A DNA stretch of 48,979 nt from a virus. Position numbers and translations under genes: made by a program. Numbering within the stretch: the first letter of the stretch is position 1; every line of letters starts with the position of its first letter. Below are positions 1-47,394 of this stretch, one piece after another. Under the pieces are notes generated by a model, which was not told where the DNA came from, searched no databases, and was given only the letters and a program-made list of their open reading frames with translations. The stretch spans positions 1 to 48,979 of IMG/VR virus record IMGVR_UViG_3300002228_000021. One strand, 5' to 3'.

Positions 1-293
1 TAAGATCGAAGTTGATGTGTATGTCCGATAAGGATAGTCCCGGGCCGACGGCGACGGACAAGAGACCTGGGGACAGGTCCACTGCACAATCCAATCAACG
101 AGATCCGAATACTAACGTGTAGGATAGAGTCTGATGCTTCGCGGCAGAAGGCAAAGTCCATCACAAGCGAAGAAGGGTGAGAAGCCCGGAAACGCGAAGT
201 GAGGCTTAGTATCCCGCAAGGAGAAAAGCAGGAGGTGTGTTGTATTCCGTATCTAACAAGGTGCGGAGCAACTGGAGCAGCACATCTTAGTAG

Positions 294-367
294 GTTTGCA
301 TAGCTCAACTGGAAAGAGCAATCGCCTTCTACGCGATGGGTTTCAGGTTCAACTCCTGATGCACATA
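294..367 (+). tRNA. tRNA-Arg(UCU)-like domain inside the large RNA
   Basis: The cloverleaf has an acceptor 294-300/360-366 with a G-T pair and one T-C mismatch, D stem 303-306/316-319, anticodon stem 321-325/333-337 with loop 326-332 and anticodon TCT at 328-330, and T stem 343-347/355-359 with loop TTCAACT. Unlike the other tRNAs in this window it does not encode CCA; ACA follows the discriminator. It lies between the two strands of the 268-280/382-394 helix, so it may be processed out or may be a fixed structural domain. AGA codons would be its targets if it is functional. Confidence 0.75.
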
Positions 368-815
368 ACAAAATGCAAAGACTGCTCCGGTTGCGTGTTA
401 AAGATGCCTAATGCCAAGACCTTCGGGTAACTTGGCGCACTGGAGGTCGCAAGCCAAAGGTGTTCGTTGGGAACGAAGACGTAGACTCTTAGCGGGGTCG
501 AACTGCTCGCAAGGCAGGCGGAAGAGTGAACGACGAGTAGCACGTAACGACAGGTGAAAAGCCACACCTCAAAAAAGGCGGCATTGAGTGATACTAGGAT
601 AGCTGCAAGGCGCCTAGTGGATAACGGATTAACTTGGCTCGCAAGGCTAAAGGTACGGTCCAAAGGCACTCACTTCAACGTGTAATCTCAGCGTTGGTAT
701 AGATTTTGAAGATTTAAGCGAGCGCCAGACGGAGAAGGCGCTGTTGGCTTGAAACCGCCCGTATCGATAGTGTACTATCAAGCTACCCACACATGGCGTT
801 CACTTAAATCTTTGA

Positions 816-823
816 GATAAATA
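816..823 (+). promoter_or_regulatory. late-type promoter box GATAAATA before tRNA-Ala
   Basis: GATAAATA resembles the T4 late promoter TATAAATA. The implied start (about 6 nt past the box) is near 829, immediately upstream of tRNA-Ala at 834 and just after the last helix of the large RNA. Confidence 0.45.
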
Positions 824-833
824 ATCAGTTAAC

Positions 834-909
834 GGGGCCTTAGCTCATCTGGGAGAGCGTCTGCTTTGCACGCAGAAGGTGATCGGTTCGAGTCCGATAG
901 GCTCCACCA
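834..909 (+). tRNA. tRNA-Ala(UGC)
   Basis: Acceptor GGGGCCT 834-840 pairs with 899-905, with one G-T. The D stem is 843-846/855-858. The anticodon loop TTTGCAC at 865-871 gives anticodon TGC. The T stem ATCGG/CCGAT flanks loop TTCGAGT. Discriminator A906 and an encoded CCA at 907-909 complete a canonical tRNA. Confidence 0.95.
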
Positions 910-6319: not shown

Positions 6320-6938
6320 CATCCTGCGACTCGGCGGCGGAGCAATGGGCCTGTTCTTGGGCTTGGTGCTCTTCTCGTTCATGAACTCACCCGACGTGTT
6401 TCCGTTCGCGGATACCGTCATTCCGATCGTGCAGGCTGTCCTGTTGGGCGTCGGCATGTTCATGATGCTGCCGCGGCAGATGACCACTGCTGAGATGCTA
6501 CTCCGTGAGTTCAGCGGATCGAAGGTCAGCGCGGAAGAGCTGGACAATGTGATCAAGAAGGGCATGGAGAAAGTTGATGCCTTGCTCGCAGCGGCTGATC
6601 AGATCGAGGACGCTGCCGTGTCACTCAAGATCGAGAAGATCGCCCGCGTTGCGGACCGCATCTTCGAAGGATTCATTGAGGATCCAGACGACATCCGTCG
6701 CTCGCGAGACTTTCTCGATCTGTACCTAGGCAAGACTGTTGACATTGTCAGCAGTTATGCTAAACTAGAATCAAAGGGCGACGCCGCAGGCGCGACCCTA
6801 CAGCAAGTGAAGGAACTCCTCGACACCATCGAGGACGCCTTCGAAGCGCAATACGAGAAGAACCTAGAGGACGATCTTCTCGACCTTAGCGTACAATCCT
6901 CGGTCCTCGAGAAGAAGATCAAACTGAGTGGAATCTAA
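6312..6938 (+). CDS. xpaC: XpaC-like membrane protein (5-bromo-4-chloroindolyl phosphate hydrolysis family)
   Basis: 208 aa. ATG at 6312 is preferred to 6246 because AAGGAGA precedes it by 8 nt. Two N-terminal hydrophobic segments (about residues 8-22 and 32-53) are followed by a soluble, highly charged helical domain with coiled-coil character. This architecture and the position directly before telA match the XpaC family; in many bacteria xpaC and telA are neighbours. The historical name refers to a phosphatase phenotype and does not establish catalysis. Likely an inner-membrane partner of TelA. It overlaps the Coq4-like gene by 8 nt, so translation is probably coupled. Confidence 0.7.
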   Translation: MPNILRLGGGAMGLFLGLVLFSFMNSPDVFPFADTVIPIVQAVLLGVGMFMMLPRQMTTAEMLLREFSGSKVSAEELDNVIKKGMEKVDALLAAADQIEDAAVSLKIEKIARVADRIFEGFIEDPDDIRRSRDFLDLYLGKTVDIVSSYAKLESKGDAAGATLQQVKELLDTIEDAFEAQYEKNLEDDLLDLSVQSSVLEKKIKLSGI

Positions 6939-6948
6939 GGAGACAGAC

Positions 6949-8094
6949 ATGACCACAGCAGTAGCTACCCCGACCGTTGATATGATCGTGGCTGAGGCCG
7001 AGAAGAAGACGATCAATGCACCGGCGGTCATTCCGAGCACCGAAGGCCAGGAGCTCATCGTCGCTCCAGTTGACGGTGAAGTCCAGAAGGACTATGACGG
7101 CCTCATGAAGGCGTTCGAAGGATCCGACACCAACGGCATCCTGATGTACGCAAGCGAGAAGCAGCGCGCTTCGACTGCGGCAGCAGAATCACTGCTCGAC
7201 GGCGTTCGCAACAAGGACCTCGGGCCGGTCGGCACCGGCCTGAACAACATCGCACTGAGCATCAAGGGTTTCGACCTTTCCATGCTCAAGGGCGAACAGG
7301 GCGAGCCGGGATTCTTCGGCAAGCTGATGGGCAAGGTCTCGCCGGTGGCAAAGTGGCTCGAAAGCTACTCCACCGTCGAAGGTCAGATCGATGCCATCGT
7401 CAAGAAGCTGAACGAAGACCAACTCAAGATGATGGAAGACGTTGAGAAGCTCGACCGCATGTTCAACGCCCAGGTCGATCATTTCCGCGGTCTTGAGGCG
7501 GCGATCGAAGCTGGCGATCGTGCCATCGCAGAGATCAACAACAACCTCCTACCGAAACTCCAGAAGAAGGCCGAGGCGTCCACCGACGCGATGGCCGGCG
7601 CCATGTTCGCCGACAAGAAGGACATGCGCGACAAGATCGAGCGTCGAATCCATGACCTTCGCCTGACGCGCGAGATCATCCGGCAGAACCTGCCGGGCAT
7701 CCGTACCACGCAGCAGAGCGATGCCGGCCTCGTCGAGAAGATCGAGACGATCAAGGTCAACACCATTCCGCTGTGGAAGCAGCAGATGGCGATCCTGGTT
7801 GCCGCGGCTCGTACCAAGGGCGTCGCCCAGGCCGTGAACGAAGTGACCGACGTGACCAACGACCTGCTTCGCAGCGGTGCTGAGCTGGTCAAGGACGCCA
7901 ACGTCGAAGCGCGTCGTGCGCTGGAGCGTGGCATCGTCTCGGTTGAGACGATCGAGTACGCGAACGGTCAGATGATCGCGATGATCGAAGAGACGCAGGC
8001 GATCTACGAAGAAGCGAAGACCATGCGTGCTGACGCTGTCGGTCGCCTGGATGCTGCGGCCGCTGCACTGAAGCAGGCGCAGCTGGTCAAGTAA
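6949..8094 (+). CDS. telA: TelA/KlaA toxic-anion-resistance family protein
   Basis: 381 aa, almost wholly helical. Hallmarks of the family are present in order: IVKKLNEDQLKMMEDVEKLD, a run KKDMRDKIERRIHDLRLTREI, then VEKIETIKVNTIPLWKQQM and the closing EVTDVTNDLLR / ERGIVSVETI segment. TelA proteins are associated with tellurite, bacteriocin and envelope-stress resistance; the mechanism is not settled. ATG 6949 follows TAAGGAGACAG, 10 nt after xpaC stops, and is preferred to 6928 inside xpaC. Last gene of the cassette, followed by a stable hairpin. A phage copy is unusual and suggests that infected cells are armoured against envelope stress or competitors. Confidence 0.9.
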   Translation: MTTAVATPTVDMIVAEAEKKTINAPAVIPSTEGQELIVAPVDGEVQKDYDGLMKAFEGSDTNGILMYASEKQRASTAAAESLLDGVRNKDLGPVGTGLNNIALSIKGFDLSMLKGEQGEPGFFGKLMGKVSPVAKWLESYSTVEGQIDAIVKKLNEDQLKMMEDVEKLDRMFNAQVDHFRGLEAAIEAGDRAIAEINNNLLPKLQKKAEASTDAMAGAMFADKKDMRDKIERRIHDLRLTREIIRQNLPGIRTTQQSDAGLVEKIETIKVNTIPLWKQQMAILVAAARTKGVAQAVNEVTDVTNDLLRSGAELVKDANVEARRALERGIVSVETIEYANGQMIAMIEETQAIYEEAKTMRADAVGRLDAAAAALKQAQLVK

Positions 8095-8440: not shown

Positions 8441-9331
8441 ATGGCAAGCGTAATTAACAGGCTTGATAAACTGAAACTGATCAATCCGCCGGCATGGCTT
8501 CCGAACAACACGATGTTCGAAGGTTGGACCGGTTCGGTTGCCTATGGCGCATCAAGCGACAACAGCGACATGGATGTGATCGGCTTCTGTATGCCTCCCA
8601 AGGATTTCGTGTTTCCGCACCTTACGGGTGAGATCGCAGGCTTTGGCCAGCAGATCCAGAGGTTCGAGCAATTTCAAACTCATCATGTAAAAGACAAGAG
8701 CACGGGCAAGGAATATGACATCACGGTGTTCAGCATCGTGAAGTTCTTCCAACTCGCGATGGAAAACAACCCAAACATGGTGGACAACTTGTTCCTGCCA
8801 CGTCGGTGTGTGCTCCATTCCACGGCGATCTACGAGCATGTTCGGAACAACCGTCGGTTGTTCCTGCACAAGGGATCGTACCACAAGTTCCGTGGTTACT
8901 CGATGTCACAGATGTCGAAGATCAACAAGGGATCAAATCGGTCAAATCCGAAGCGTCAGGCGTCAATCGACGAGTTCGGATTTGACGTGAAGTTCGCCTC
9001 CCATGTCGTGCGCCTGCTTCTTGAAGCAGAGCAGATCATGGCGACCGGAGATTTGGTCCTCGACCGTGACTCGGAAGTCTACAAGGCGATCCGTAGAGGC
9101 GAATGGAGCCTCGAACAGATCAACAAGTGGGCTGAAGAGAAGGAACGGTCGTTGGAAACTCTCTACGCGGAGAGCAAGCTGCCGGAACGGCCTGACGAAG
9201 AGGCCATCAAGCAGGTGCTCGTCGAGTGCATGGAGATGCACTATGGTAGCCTTGAAGCTGCCGTAGTCGAGCAGGATAAGCACGGTCGCCTCGTGCGTGA
9301 GCTCCAGGAGCTCGTGAAAAGGCATCAGTAA
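8441..9331 (+). CDS. RlaP-type nucleotidyltransferase
   Basis: 296 aa with the DNA-polymerase-beta-superfamily signature GSVAYGASSDNSDMDVIGF at 31-49: the GS pair plus D43 and D45 that would coordinate metal for nucleotide transfer. The longer helical C-terminal region and a third acidic position (EYDITVF near residue 91) match the predicted nucleotidyltransferases often associated with RNA ligases (RlaP). These are common in T4-like phages and may add or repair nucleotides at RNA ends after host anticodon-nuclease attack. No RNA ligase or polynucleotide kinase is in this window, so that role rests on family association. Expressed from its own promoter and followed by a hairpin. Confidence 0.8.
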   Translation: MASVINRLDKLKLINPPAWLPNNTMFEGWTGSVAYGASSDNSDMDVIGFCMPPKDFVFPHLTGEIAGFGQQIQRFEQFQTHHVKDKSTGKEYDITVFSIVKFFQLAMENNPNMVDNLFLPRRCVLHSTAIYEHVRNNRRLFLHKGSYHKFRGYSMSQMSKINKGSNRSNPKRQASIDEFGFDVKFASHVVRLLLEAEQIMATGDLVLDRDSEVYKAIRRGEWSLEQINKWAEEKERSLETLYAESKLPERPDEEAIKQVLVECMEMHYGSLEAAVVEQDKHGRLVRELQELVKRHQ

Positions 9332-11663: not shown

Positions 11664-11922
11664 GCTCGTGGGTTTTTACACCCATATAGTCATCTGGGCC
11701 GATCTCAATAATCTAGAAGAACGGGTCATCATGAACTTCTATCGAACGAACCCTTCGGGCGTCCGCTCGGTAGAAATTGACTACGAAGGAACTCTCGTGA
11801 GAGATTACAAGAAGGGCAACGATCTCGATCATCTCCGGCGCTTGTGGATTGATGCTAACACCCTTCAGCCGAACACGAAATTCGTTGGCAAATACAAGCG
11901 TCTAATGGAGGAAAAACGATGA
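11623..11922 (+). CDS. hypothetical protein overlapping the ligase start
   Basis: 99 aa: MFGWMKSKPREDRELVGFY, then alternating hydrophobic strands and HLRRLWIDANTLQPN, ending in a lysine-rich tail. No recognised family. The start lies within the preceding gene (41-nt overlap) and the stop overlaps the ligase ATG (ATGA), so it is translationally coupled at both ends. The composition agrees with the neighbours and no alternative start exists after the upstream stop. Confidence 0.65.
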   Translation: MFGWMKSKPREDRELVGFYTHIVIWADLNNLEERVIMNFYRTNPSGVRSVEIDYEGTLVRDYKKGNDLDHLRRLWIDANTLQPNTKFVGKYKRLMEEKR

Positions 11923-13241
11923 GGACACAACCGCAAGAAATCATTGCGCTGCTAGAGGGCACAGACTCCAAGCTGGAAAAGCAAGCCATCCTTGAAGCTG
12001 CAATCGACGATGGGCTGGAAGAGTTTTTCGATGGCTTAAGGATGGCTCTGAATCCACTCCATACTTTTGGTGTCAAACAGGTACCAATCAAGAAGGGTGA
12101 CGGGCAAGGACTTCCGTGGACAGCATTCGTTGAGCTACAGGGCAAGCTGGCGACACGAGAGCTCACCGGACATGCCGCACGAGATGCGATCCAGCTTGCG
12201 ATGGATGTCGCAACCGAAGAACAATGGAACGGTTGGTACCGTCGCATCCTGATCAAGGACATGCGGGCCGGCTTTTCCGAGAGCACCGTCAACAAGGTGG
12301 TCAAGAAGAAAGACAAGGCACACTGGGGCATTCCTCTCTTTGAGTGCCAGCTCGCACATCCCAGCGAGAAGTACGAGAAGAAATTGGTCGGCAAGAAGCT
12401 GATCGAAGTCAAGCTCGATGGTGTGCGTGTGGTGACCATCGTCCGCACAGACGGCCGGGTTGAGATGTTCAGCCGGAATGGTCGTAGGTTTGAGAATTTC
12501 GGACACATCGAGGATCAGATCAGTAAAGTCGTCACGGAGGTTCCTCCTCCGTACGACATGGTACTTGATGGTGAGATCATGAGCGACAGCTTCCAGGATC
12601 TCATGACGCAGGTCCATCGCCGTTCTAACGTCAAGGCAGATGACTCCATCCTGTATCTGTTCGACTGTCTTCCGTATCACGACTGGAAGAACGGCGGCTG
12701 CAAGACCACGCAGCTAGTACGTTCGCAAATGACACAAGCCTGGGTCAACACTCACAAGACAAGCCTGCCCAACGTTGATACGCTTGCTTACGAGATGGTT
12801 GACCTTGATACTGATGCCGGCCAAGCACGCTTCAAGGAGATCAACAAGACGGCGATCGAAGGCGGCTACGAAGGCATCATGATCAAGGATACCCAGGCGC
12901 AGTACAAGAACAAGCGCTCAGACGCATGGCTCAAGCTCAAGCCCTTTATCGAGGTTACGCTTGAGGTCAAAGGAACCGAGGAAGGAACGGGCAAAAACGA
13001 AGGCAAGCTCGGAGCCCTGATCTGTGCAGGCACAGACGAAGGCAAACACATCTTCGTGAACTGCGGCGGAGGTTTTTCCGACGAACAACGCGAAGGCTTC
13101 TGGGAAAAGCGTGAATCTCTGATCGGGATGCTGGCTGAGGTCCGTGCCGACGCCATCACGCAAAACCAGGACGGGACGTATAGCTTGCGATTCCCGCGGT
13201 TCAAAGGCTTCCGCGGGTTCGTGCCCGGCGAGAAGATATGA
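11919..13241 (+). CDS. ATP-dependent DNA ligase, T4 gp30 type
   Basis: 440 aa. Nucleotidyltransferase motif I is EVKLDGVR with the AMP-accepting lysine at residue 165. Further motifs are FSRNGRRF (motif Ia/III region), MVLDGEIM (motif III), EGIMIKD (motif IV) and WLKLKP (motif V), followed by an OB-fold C-terminal domain. The protein seals nicks with ATP by way of a ligase-adenylate. Its length and the helical N-terminal domain of about 135 residues match the T4-type ligase that joins Okazaki fragments and serves repair. It overlaps both neighbours by 4 nt. Confidence 0.95.
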   Translation: MRTQPQEIIALLEGTDSKLEKQAILEAAIDDGLEEFFDGLRMALNPLHTFGVKQVPIKKGDGQGLPWTAFVELQGKLATRELTGHAARDAIQLAMDVATEEQWNGWYRRILIKDMRAGFSESTVNKVVKKKDKAHWGIPLFECQLAHPSEKYEKKLVGKKLIEVKLDGVRVVTIVRTDGRVEMFSRNGRRFENFGHIEDQISKVVTEVPPPYDMVLDGEIMSDSFQDLMTQVHRRSNVKADDSILYLFDCLPYHDWKNGGCKTTQLVRSQMTQAWVNTHKTSLPNVDTLAYEMVDLDTDAGQARFKEINKTAIEGGYEGIMIKDTQAQYKNKRSDAWLKLKPFIEVTLEVKGTEEGTGKNEGKLGALICAGTDEGKHIFVNCGGGFSDEQREGFWEKRESLIGMLAEVRADAITQNQDGTYSLRFPRFKGFRGFVPGEKI

Positions 13242-45141: not shown

Positions 45142-47394
45142 ATGGTAGAACCATCTAAAGAGCTATCTACGATATTTGAAAATGCAGTAGCTCTTGCAAA
45201 CAAGAACAGACACCAATACGTGACGCTAGAGCATTTGCTCTTCGCGATGCTAGAAGAGGAGAACTTTTCAAAGCTGCTCAAGGGCTATGGAGCAGAAGTC
45301 CAATACATCAAGACCAATCTCCAGCACATGCTGAAAGACAAGCTGGATGACATCAAGGTCGATCCAAGCATCAAGAAATATAAGCCAACGAAGACACAAA
45401 CGGTTGAGCGTGTACTCAACCGTGCGTTCACGCAGGTTCTGTTTAATGGTGGACGTACCATTGAGCTGACCGACGTGCTCATCAGCATGATGGCTGAGAA
45501 GAAGTCTATGTGCTACTACTTCCTGGAACAGGCAGGAGTTGACAAGAAATCATTCTCAGAATTCGTACATGCAGAAGTCGAGGAAGCGATCGAACAAGAA
45601 GAGATCACTCAGGGCGAGCAGAAAGCACTGAAGGCATTCACCGAGAACCTGAACCGCAAGGTCAAGCAAAAGAAGATCGATCCCGTCATCGCTCGCAATC
45701 CTGAGCTTGATAAGATCGCGCTTGCGCTCGGTCGACGTAACAAAAGCAACGTGATACTTGTTGGTGATCCAGGTGTCGGTAAGACGGCCATCGTTGAAGG
45801 TCTTGCCTTCAACATCGTGCAGGGCACAGTACCTGAGTTCCTCAAGGAATACGAAGTCTACAACTTGGACATCTCAGCAATGCTGGCAGGATCCAAGTAC
45901 CGAGGCGACTTTGAGGAGCGTTTCAAGGCGGTGCTCAATGCTATCGTGAAGAAAGGCAAGTGTGTCTTGTTCATCGACGAAGCACACATGATCAGTGGCG
46001 CTGGTTCGGGCTCATCTAACAATGCAAACGACCTAGCAAACATGCTGAAGCCTGCACTAGGCAAAGGTGATGTCAAGGTGGTCGCCTCTACGACTTGGGA
46101 AGAATATCGCAAGTATTTCGAGAAGGACCGTGCCTTGATGAGGCGCTTCCAGCGTGTCACGGTGGACGAACCGACTCCGGAACAGGCAGAAGAGATCCTA
46201 ATCTCAATCAAACCGTACTACGAAGAATACCACAACGCACAGATCACGGATGAGGCTGTACGAGAAGCTGTCAAGCTGTCTGTCAAGTATCAGCCTGACA
46301 AGAAGCTGCCTGACAAGGCAATTGATCTGATTGATGTGGCATGCGCTCGATTCAAGCTGATCAACCAGACTGAAGGAAAGTTCGTGGACCGAGAGAACAT
46401 CCAGTACGAACTCTCACAGATGGTACGCATGGATCCAACTCGTGTGGCCGAGAAGGAGAGTGAGAACCTCGCTAACCTGAACAAGAACATCAAAAGCAAG
46501 GTGTTTGGACAAGACGAGGCCGTTGATGCGCTGACCGACAAGGTTCACATCGCACAAGCAGGTCTGCAAGATGACGATAAGCCAATCGGCGCATTCGTCT
46601 TCATGGGTCCAACTGGCGTCGGTAAGACAGAAACGGCTAAGGCCCTTGCCGAAGAACTTGGTGCAAAGCTCATTCGTTTCGACATGTCTGAATACATGGA
46701 GAAACATGCTATCTCTAAGCTGATTGGTTCGCCTCCAGGGTATGTTGGCTTCGAAGATAATGGGGGCTTGCTGATCACGTCAGTGCAGGAACATCCAAAC
46801 TGTGTCTTGCTACTGGATGAGATTGAGAAAGCACACCCGGATATCGCACAGATCCTGTTGCAGATCATGGACAACGGCAAGCTGACCGGATCAAACGGCA
46901 AGGAAGCTGATTTCCGTAATGTCACGCTCATCATCACTACTAACCTCGGTGCTCAAGATTCCGAGAAGCATAACATCGGGTTTGGTGTCAGCCTTGAGAA
47001 GGAGCATACGACCGAAGAGCTCGACAAGTTCTTCCGTCCAGAGTTCCGTAACAGGCTAGATGGTATCATCACCTTTGGCAAGCTGCCTAAGGAGATCATG
47101 CTCAAGATCGTTGGTAAGTTCATGCGAGAACTGAAACTTAAAGTCGAGAGCAAGGGTGTGACGATCGAGATGACCGGAGAAGCATTTGACTACCTGGTCG
47201 AGAAAGGCTTCCATCCTAAGTTTGGCGCTCGTCCGTTGAAGCGTGTGATAAACGACGAGATCAAGAAGCCGCTTGCCAAGGAGATGCTGTTTGGCAATCT
47301 CAAGAACGGCGGCACGATTACCATCAATGCACATGATGGTAATCTAGAATTTGATGTGGTACACGAGGCTCCGTTTGAAGAAATACAAGACTAA
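45142..47394 (+). CDS. clpA: ClpA-like AAA+ unfoldase
   Basis: 750 aa, close to host ClpA length. A Clp-N domain (1-145; YVTLEHLLFAMLEE) is followed by D1 with Walker A GDPGVGKT at 208-215 and LFIDEAHMI, and D2 with Walker A GPTGVGKT at 489-496 and LLLDEIEKAHPDI. There is no long ClpB-type middle domain. The ClpP-docking tripeptide is retained as IGF at 612-614. Therefore the protein can probably unfold substrates and feed host ClpP; no clpP or clpS is nearby. Phage use could be degradation of host regulators or remodelling of complexes. It forms a chaperone set with DnaJ and the GroES-like protein. Confidence 0.93.
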   Translation: MVEPSKELSTIFENAVALANKNRHQYVTLEHLLFAMLEEENFSKLLKGYGAEVQYIKTNLQHMLKDKLDDIKVDPSIKKYKPTKTQTVERVLNRAFTQVLFNGGRTIELTDVLISMMAEKKSMCYYFLEQAGVDKKSFSEFVHAEVEEAIEQEEITQGEQKALKAFTENLNRKVKQKKIDPVIARNPELDKIALALGRRNKSNVILVGDPGVGKTAIVEGLAFNIVQGTVPEFLKEYEVYNLDISAMLAGSKYRGDFEERFKAVLNAIVKKGKCVLFIDEAHMISGAGSGSSNNANDLANMLKPALGKGDVKVVASTTWEEYRKYFEKDRALMRRFQRVTVDEPTPEQAEEILISIKPYYEEYHNAQITDEAVREAVKLSVKYQPDKKLPDKAIDLIDVACARFKLINQTEGKFVDRENIQYELSQMVRMDPTRVAEKESENLANLNKNIKSKVFGQDEAVDALTDKVHIAQAGLQDDDKPIGAFVFMGPTGVGKTETAKALAEELGAKLIRFDMSEYMEKHAISKLIGSPPGYVGFEDNGGLLITSVQEHPNCVLLLDEIEKAHPDIAQILLQIMDNGKLTGSNGKEADFRNVTLIITTNLGAQDSEKHNIGFGVSLEKEHTTEELDKFFRPEFRNRLDGIITFGKLPKEIMLKIVGKFMRELKLKVESKGVTIEMTGEAFDYLVEKGFHPKFGARPLKRVINDEIKKPLAKEMLFGNLKNGGTITINAHDGNLEFDVVHEAPFEEIQD

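Follow-up and report, generated by a model that had tools for sequence, protein, structure and literature searches.

A tRNA-like domain with an exchangeable anticodon loop in the linker of phage GOLLD RNAs, probably a non-translating tRNA mimic

The original paper on GOLLD RNA, the family considered here, reportedly dates from 2009. Our subject is the RNA at the start of IMG/VR virus record IMGVR_UViG_3300002228_000021, a linear record of 48,979 bases (analysed at full length and called the window below) whose first base lies inside the RNA, and specifically the transfer RNA (tRNA)-like domain within its linker. For the env-38 GOLLD, a cage structure published in 2025 and determined by cryo-electron microscopy shows a self-assembling 14-mer with a 5′ region of 420 nucleotides (nt) and an unresolved linker pointing inward; the same paper reports that GOLLD expression rises at lysis and that the linker sometimes contains phage tRNAs, pictures covalently linked tRNAs, and calls the function unknown (PMC12286853). 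A pseudo-tRNA without detectable expression has been described inside a mycobacterial GOLLD, in a source that also attributes a tRNA prediction to the original GOLLD paper (PMC6582537). The RNA, its cage and the occurrence of tRNAs in the linker have therefore all been published. Our comparison of relatives indicates that, in the clade to which the window belongs, the linker very probably holds a tRNA-like domain in place of an exported tRNA. A targeted literature search found the clade-wide acceptor loss, alternative helix and loop exchange described below nowhere in print; loop exchange is not described in the GOLLD passages of PMC6582537 and PMC9569102, the word "anticodon" does not occur in the text of PMC12286853, and no paper with the term "decoy tRNA" in the context of phage defence was among the matches listed.

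With respect to identity, positions 1–694 of the window are almost certainly a phage GOLLD RNA whose 5′ end is missing. The Rfam GOLLD model (RF02032) matches positions 232–694 with 180.4 bits, above the gathering score of 150 bits and over model positions 1–416 of 416, so that the guess of an initial annotation, that this was a GOLLD-like RNA, passes the covariance-model check which that annotation had itself proposed. None of 14 control genomes gave a match to the model. ROOL, likewise a large phage cage RNA found near tRNAs (PMC12286853), is ruled out by the companion check, as the window has no Rfam ROOL match at the gathering score or up to an E value of 5. The locus thus resembles RF02032 and env-38 (PMC12286853) in its full-length model match, phage origin, tRNA cluster, variable linker and apparently divergent 5′ domain, and differs from the Rfam consensus in that the linker of the latter is an A/U-rich stretch. 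Four of the five further tRNAs in the window lie within 1.6 kb downstream (ARAGORN). The pairing 272–280/382–390 forms at least eight of its nine pairs in 62 of 63 distinct relatives (mean 48 and maximum 57 with partners shuffled), and its pairs 4–6 vary on both strands; compensatory changes, which the annotation had suggested looking for, therefore exist. Folding energy alone would not have revealed GOLLD, because the z scores of six window sub-stretches are mostly weak (−4.08, −2.85, −1.60, −0.89, 0.18 and 0.06), and it is the covariance model that carries the evidence.

Among named phages, a first scan placed six of seven loci above the Rfam cut-off (Phaeobacter phage MD18, DSS3_MAL1, Mesorhizobium phage Cp1R7A-A1, Roseobacter phage DSS3P8 and Caulobacter phages CcrMagneto and BL57). 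The cut-off was also passed by phiCbK and Sinorhizobium phage Phosso, and Erythrobacter phage vB_EliS-L02 aligns with the other phage GOLLDs at a score below it. The fetched locus nearest to the window GOLLD, L014 (loci carry L numbers throughout), is 77% identical over 725 aligned positions. The parts of the window RNA are as follows.

1–231, plus strand: GOLLD 5′ domain, incomplete, from alignment to relatives (L014 is 88% identical over 99–231)
232–694, plus strand: GOLLD conserved 3′ domain, complete (RF02032)
272–280, plus strand: 5′ strand of the conserved pairing with 382–390, mostly unpaired in the Rfam structure line
382–390, plus strand: 3′ strand, partner of 272–280
294–367, plus strand: embedded tRNA-like domain, called tRNA-Arg(TCT) by ARAGORN and Rfam
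295–300, plus strand: UUUGCA, 5′ acceptor strand, with a possible alternative partner at 374–379 of GOLLD
326–332, plus strand: anticodon loop CUUCUAC of the tRNA-like domain
374–379, plus strand: UGCAAA, GOLLD strand in competition for 295–300

The tRNA-Arg call at 294–367 (anticodon UCU) lies inside the GOLLD linker. Its D stem (303–306/316–319), anticodon stem (321–325/333–337) and T stem (343–347/355–359) form 4/4, 5/5 and 5/5 pairs, respectively. The acceptor stem (294–300/360–366) pairs at six of seven positions, with a U–C mismatch at pair 3 and a G–U at pair 1, and is followed by AACA, not by CCA. Compared with a functional tRNA, all three arms are in place, whereas a complete 7-bp acceptor and an encoded CCA are not. 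In the window itself, where the acceptor is less damaged than in its relatives, we regard a tRNA-like domain in place of an exported tRNA as likely.

To set this domain in context, we searched IMG/VR for relatives using a pattern independent of the tRNA and anchored at the 3′ edge of the linker, its first positions being the bases that immediately precede the conserved AGAYUG. It gave 72 loci, every one of which matches a GOLLD profile derived from the window together with seven phage loci (eight sequences in all). An Rfam scan of 20 loci, 17 from this set plus three more, placed 18 above the cut-off and two, L017 and L036, below. Adding the window, the named phages and two bacterial contigs brings the set to 86 GOLLD loci, 78 of which yielded linkers, 63 of them distinct. 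Five loci were left out because their flank motif differs (L017, L028, L036, L086 and L090), all of which hold tRNA-like sequence by eye, and three because the locus sequence truncates the linker or stops short of it (L046, L062 and L074). A pattern search of bacterial genome contigs gave three loci, two of them GOLLD by profile, and patterns for other GOLLD branches gave five further loci (three, one and one), one of them GOLLD by profile. Linkers were read with a parser requiring at least three of four D-stem, four of five anticodon-stem and four of five T-stem pairs. For comparison, the same loci contain 512 distinct free tRNAs, 485 of which were parsed in the same way (27 were unparsed); loop lengths and loop bases were compared with the 453 of parse score at least 19, 450 of which have 7-nt loops. 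Since the sequences are related, Fisher p-values from these comparisons overstate independence.

All three arms are present in 57 of the 63 distinct linkers, each scoring above 15; one of the remainder (L034) is a circularly permuted tRNA and five are reduced. Among the 57, pairs are kept in 56–57 domains in the D arm, 54–57 in the anticodon arm and 56–57 in the T arm, with many compensatory changes (the middle anticodon pair, for example, is AT in 17, TA in 17, CG in 14 and GC in 8), this high pairing being partly a product of selection because the parser demands paired arms. The acceptor behaves differently: pairs 4–7 are kept in 54–56 of 57, and pairs 1, 2 and 3 in only 34, 12 and 30. A perfect 7/7 acceptor occurs in two embedded domains (L080 and L084) versus 401 of 485 free tRNAs, and CCA in two (L019 and L080) versus 461 of 485. 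By a hand count of clusters of like bodies, 25 of 27 lack any member with CCA.

These figures bear directly on whether the domain is an ordinary phage tRNA gene, carried in the GOLLD transcript and excised by RNases P and Z to supplement translation. The calls by ARAGORN and Rfam speak for this, as do its annotation as a tRNA in five of the first seven named phage records, the 6/7 acceptor of the window, and the intact acceptor with TCCA of L086. The rarity of CCA and of perfect acceptors relative to free tRNAs is hard to reconcile with it, as are 8- and 9-nt anticodon loops and Leu and Ser anticodons on bodies with short variable regions. Moreover, the mycobacterial GOLLD tRNA prediction was itself termed a pseudo-tRNA, with expression not detected (PMC6582537). 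Overall, we consider an excised, translating tRNA improbable. The opposite extreme, a functionless pseudogene decaying in a tolerant loop, would account for the variability of the linker, for the five linkers that have lost most of the tRNA and for the faster evolution of the domain than of the rest of GOLLD. It fits poorly with near-perfect arms carrying many compensatory changes in 27 clusters of like bodies (a count to be read with the preference of the parser for paired arms in mind), with damage confined to the acceptor tip, and with the mostly inherited state of the domain; we judge it the least probable of the readings considered here.

Because a decaying gene would lose pairs everywhere and a working tRNA would keep its acceptor, whereas here the body (in reduced forms the anticodon arm) is kept and the amino-acid-carrying part is lost, the embedded domain is probably a non-translating tRNA mimic grafted onto GOLLD. 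Several observations weigh against this. A full acceptor or CCA is kept in some linkers (both in L080, the acceptor in L084 and CCA in L019), L086, outside the 57, keeps both, and the damage in the window acceptor is mild, at one G–U among 6/7 pairs. Furthermore, the Rfam tRNA model aligns over positions 1–71 in 13 of the 16 embedded domains examined; in the other three (L006, L007 and L079) it aligns over only positions 4–67 of 71. L028, also outside the 57, has 7/7 acceptor pairs without CCA.

In terms of ancestry, 52 of the 57 domains find their best-scoring match in another embedded domain, ahead of every free tRNA of the loci, which suggests that the domain is mostly inherited, although close relatives inflate this count. 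Repeated capture of fresh tRNAs as a rule is accordingly rejected, with just five of 57, the window included, nearest to a free tRNA; fresh capture seems to happen without being the rule. Given its milder damage and its place among those five, the window domain may be a younger capture. Two loci outside the 57 have unusual arrangements. L086:1573–2116, on a contig of a Rhodobacteraceae metagenome-assembled genome, is a GOLLD-like RNA of 146.3 bits, just under the Rfam cut-off, whose linker by eye holds an intact tRNA-Arg with TCCA, perhaps an early stage; under strict filters, the Rfam GOLLD model matches one of 385 genomes of the same class, which is the centre genome itself. In L034:7592–7732 the order is T arm, acceptor 3′ strand, CCA, 8 nt, acceptor 5′ strand, and D and anticodon arms, and once put back in order the sequence is called tRNA-Ile(GAT) with a full acceptor by ARAGORN. 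This permuted tRNA possibly arose from a tandem tRNA pair, and the exact arrangement was found in no other IMG/VR contig.

The acceptor 5′ strand (UUYGC...) has a possible alternative partner in GOLLD itself, the GCRAA directly before the conserved GACUG. This alternative helix reaches at least four pairs in 53 of 57 linkers and at least five in 48, and its variable position agrees on both strands in all 57 classifiable linkers (39 C–G, 18 U–A, none mixed; classes were assigned by a simple motif test, under which six further linkers were unclassifiable). Two points tell against the helix: shuffled 3′ flanks reach at least four pairs in 56% of cases and at least five in 25%, and L002, L003, L049 and L058 are without it. 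In the window, an energy fold of 290–395 prefers the alternative helix (295–300/374–379) over the acceptor stem. The same fold also pairs 290–293/382–385, in competition with 272–280/382–390, and we give precedence to the latter in view of its covariation. Energy folds offer weak guidance here: for L021 the fold pairs the GOLLD strands UCGC/GCGA yet puts the anticodon arm in the wrong place.

We then turn to the anticodon loop, which is often unusual in the embedded domains. Loops of 8–9 nt are found in 9/57 embedded domains, against lengths other than 7 nt in 3/453 well-parsed free tRNAs (17 of all 485 parsed), and 7-nt loops starting with A32 in 6/48 against 3/450. Of the 32 distinct embedded loops, 27 have no counterpart among the 101 distinct free-tRNA loops. 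UCU and CUU anticodons account for 24 of 48 embedded 7-nt loops versus 14 of 450 free ones, many of the former sharing ancestry, and a loop that would read four bases, AUUGAUAA, recurs in four distinct linkers. Stop-reading anticodons were also seen in embedded domains (CUA in L014:6492–6564 and UCA in L045:1169–1239).

Loops are exchanged on otherwise similar bodies. One body type comprises ten distinct linkers with six loops and another thirteen linkers with four loops, and by hand count more than one loop occurs in six of the eight multi-member clusters of like bodies. Between CcrMagneto and phiCbK, 739 positions align outside the loop and 3 of these differ, the loops being CUCUUAA and CGUCCUA, respectively; L060 and L079 differ at 4 of 659 positions outside the loop and carry AUUGAUAA and AUUUUGA. 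Within the phiCbK group of 18 records (some of them duplicate entries), which are 95.8–100% identical over 861 bases, the domain is annotated as Lys in 8 and Gly in 10. Across 21 disjoint pairs of relatives the loop differs in 13, and by rate it is the fastest part, with 33/160 differences (0.206) versus 768/12,958 (0.059) for GOLLD. Against a special status for the loop stand the 8 of 21 disjoint pairs that share the same loop, a rate not clearly above that of the variable region (19/96, 0.198) or of the D loop (21/157, 0.134; p = 0.10), and the pace of the whole domain, which outruns GOLLD even in its stems (0.13–0.15). Nor does the anticodon relate to the local tRNA set: it also occurs among the free tRNAs of the locus in 13 of 48 cases, with about 15.6 expected, which amounts to neither avoidance nor completion, and the idea that the phage fills gaps in its tRNA set was therefore rejected (the loci being partial records).

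Exchange of this kind also bears on the possibility that the domain contributes to the structure or folding of the cage, its loop pairing elsewhere in GOLLD or with another subunit. The fixed position of the domain and the description of kissing loops as cage contacts (PMC12286853) are in keeping with such a role. However, loops change while GOLLD stays the same, the published env-38 cage forms with its linker unresolved (PMC12286853), and a complement of at least 6 nt to the loop occurs in its own GOLLD in 15 of 57 cases, whereas loops taken from other linkers would give about 18.9, so that pairing of the loop within its own GOLLD was rejected as a candidate. A structural role of this type appears quite unlikely to us.

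The strongest rival to the bait function considered below is ribosome docking, in which the L-shaped body and anticodon arm would occupy a tRNA site and so detain or park ribosomes during late infection. Conservation of the D and T arms is as strict as that of the anticodon arm, as docking would lead one to expect. The reduced linkers are less easily accommodated, as they lack the T arm and some also the D arm, while four of the five keep an anticodon-like arm; loops of 8–9 nt, in addition, would not decode normally. Specifically, L005, L012, L050 and L078 each retain a hairpin of five Watson–Crick pairs with a 7-nt loop and U33, expected by chance in 0.7–2.9% of shuffles for each, and no arm that strictly fits 5 bp and a 7-nt loop is present in the fifth, L039/L057. 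We regard docking as unlikely.

RNAs that mimic tRNA are familiar in bacteria, including the Y RNA YrlA and transfer-messenger RNA (tmRNA), a tRNA-like body inside a larger RNA. The tmRNA keeps a chargeable acceptor, whereas the GOLLD-embedded domain has lost the acceptor and kept the anticodon arm. As to what such a mimic might do, phage tRNAs with changed anticodon loops have been proposed as an answer to anticodon nucleases (PMC10264068), and tRNAs with U-rich anticodons are cleaved by activated LshCas13a, those for Lys and Gln being among the most heavily cut (PMC11042736). The embedded domains resemble the former in their altered loops and in a proposed conflict with anticodon nucleases, but those tRNAs are proposed to be working and cleavage-evading, whereas the GOLLD domain seems unchargeable (PMC10264068).

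Our best explanation as a whole, which we advance tentatively, is that in this clade the GOLLD linker domains are tRNA mimics held in a cage and acting as bait. If this GOLLD member forms a cage with the tRNA-like domain inside, one cage would hold up to 14 tRNA mimics that could not be aminoacylated; their anticodon arms would bind and occupy host factors, such as anticodon nucleases directed against phages, and a changing target would be followed by rapid change in the loop. That the mimic serves as bait for factors recognising anticodon loops is, taken by itself, a doubtful proposition, and more doubtful still is the fuller picture of cages as bait stations, with up to 14 acceptor-less mimics whose exchangeable loops capture anticodon nucleases or other anticodon-reading enzymes. 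The evidence assembled here is all from sequence; counting against the bait step, a nuclease would have to get in if the domain sits inside a closed cage. The RNA-repair setting gives no clear help either: an RlaP nucleotidyltransferase (an RNA repair family in Pfam) is not clearly enriched, at 9/51 GOLLD records versus 3/45 tRNA-bearing controls, and was rejected as a GOLLD companion. The 51 records were chosen from about 84 and are mostly the longer ones; the nine divide into 4/7 named phages and 5/44 IMG/VR records, between which record size differs as the named phages are large. RlaP is encoded at window 8441–9331 and lies about 1–1.5 kb from GOLLD in MD18, DSS3_MAL1 and DSS3P8.

At its boundaries, the window RNA departs from its relatives on the 5′ side and from the initial annotation on the 3′ side. 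A similar 5′ block extends about 390–520 nt upstream of the counterpart of window ~229 in seven informative pairs of relatives (of 12 compared, five were uninformative, being identical throughout or out of sequence), which indicates that the window, with only ~229–231 nt, is without part of this domain, which in GOLLD RNAs is separate, less conserved and about 400 nt long. The 3′ limit of the model is 694, after the GUGUAAUCUCAGC hairpin loop, and beyond it lie the following features.

695–833, plus strand: stable hairpin domain in the interval between GOLLD and tRNA-Ala (z = −4.08 versus 200 shuffles)
834–909, plus strand: tRNA-Ala(TGC), the first downstream tRNA gene (ARAGORN)

The annotation had described an ornate RNA over 1–830, which holds as GOLLD for 1–694 and not for 695–833, beyond the GOLLD model. 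Its 10-bp helix is real, 709–718 (aagatttaag) and 803–812 (cttaaatctt) being a perfect inverted repeat; the 84-nt domain so closed (709–812) is nevertheless rejected as part of GOLLD, as it is outside the model and without relatives (no match in 50,697 phage records at an E value of 1, nor in the fetched loci at 0.01). The stretch 1–833 is indeed without an apparent protein gene, the longest listed frame being 123 amino acids, antisense and running off the window, and the GCAA stretches and the C(UUCG)G at 421–426 are present in the sequence. The adjoining tRNA cluster was likewise correctly recognised, with five further tRNAs in the window, although the tRNA-Arg(UCU) inside the RNA was overlooked. 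Unlike an intrinsic terminator, 695–833 has no T run directly 3′; two aligned Caulobacter phages have an apparent intrinsic terminator, judged by eye, in its place.

Among neighbouring genes, an HNH endonuclease (PHROGs) lies at 879–1472, between tRNA-Ala and tRNA-Leu. HNH, GOLLD and a tRNA cluster have been reported together for mycobacteria, and the window is like that tRNA-array GOLLD in having a predicted tRNA inside and both other elements beside it; the mycobacterial RNA belongs to another clade and is likened here by description (PMC6582537). Farther along, the window encodes a TelA-like protein (6928–8094), an ATP-dependent DNA ligase (11919–13241) and a Clp-type ATPase (45142–47394). 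In other loci, permuted tmRNA genes (Rfam RF04321) adjoin GOLLD (L002, L003, L005, L006, L007, L017 and L081), and ARAGORN calls tmRNA* in L002, L003, L005, L006 and L007.

If the linker domain is a mimic maintained for its anticodon arm, the purpose of the cage becomes directly testable, and natural loop variants on nearly identical GOLLDs already exist in the laboratory Caulobacter phages phiCbK and CcrMagneto. It would also follow that annotated tRNA genes lying within GOLLD are best kept out of tallies of translation helpers. The bait-station reading, if true, would supply a first function for GOLLD, that of an RNA-only anti-defence device.
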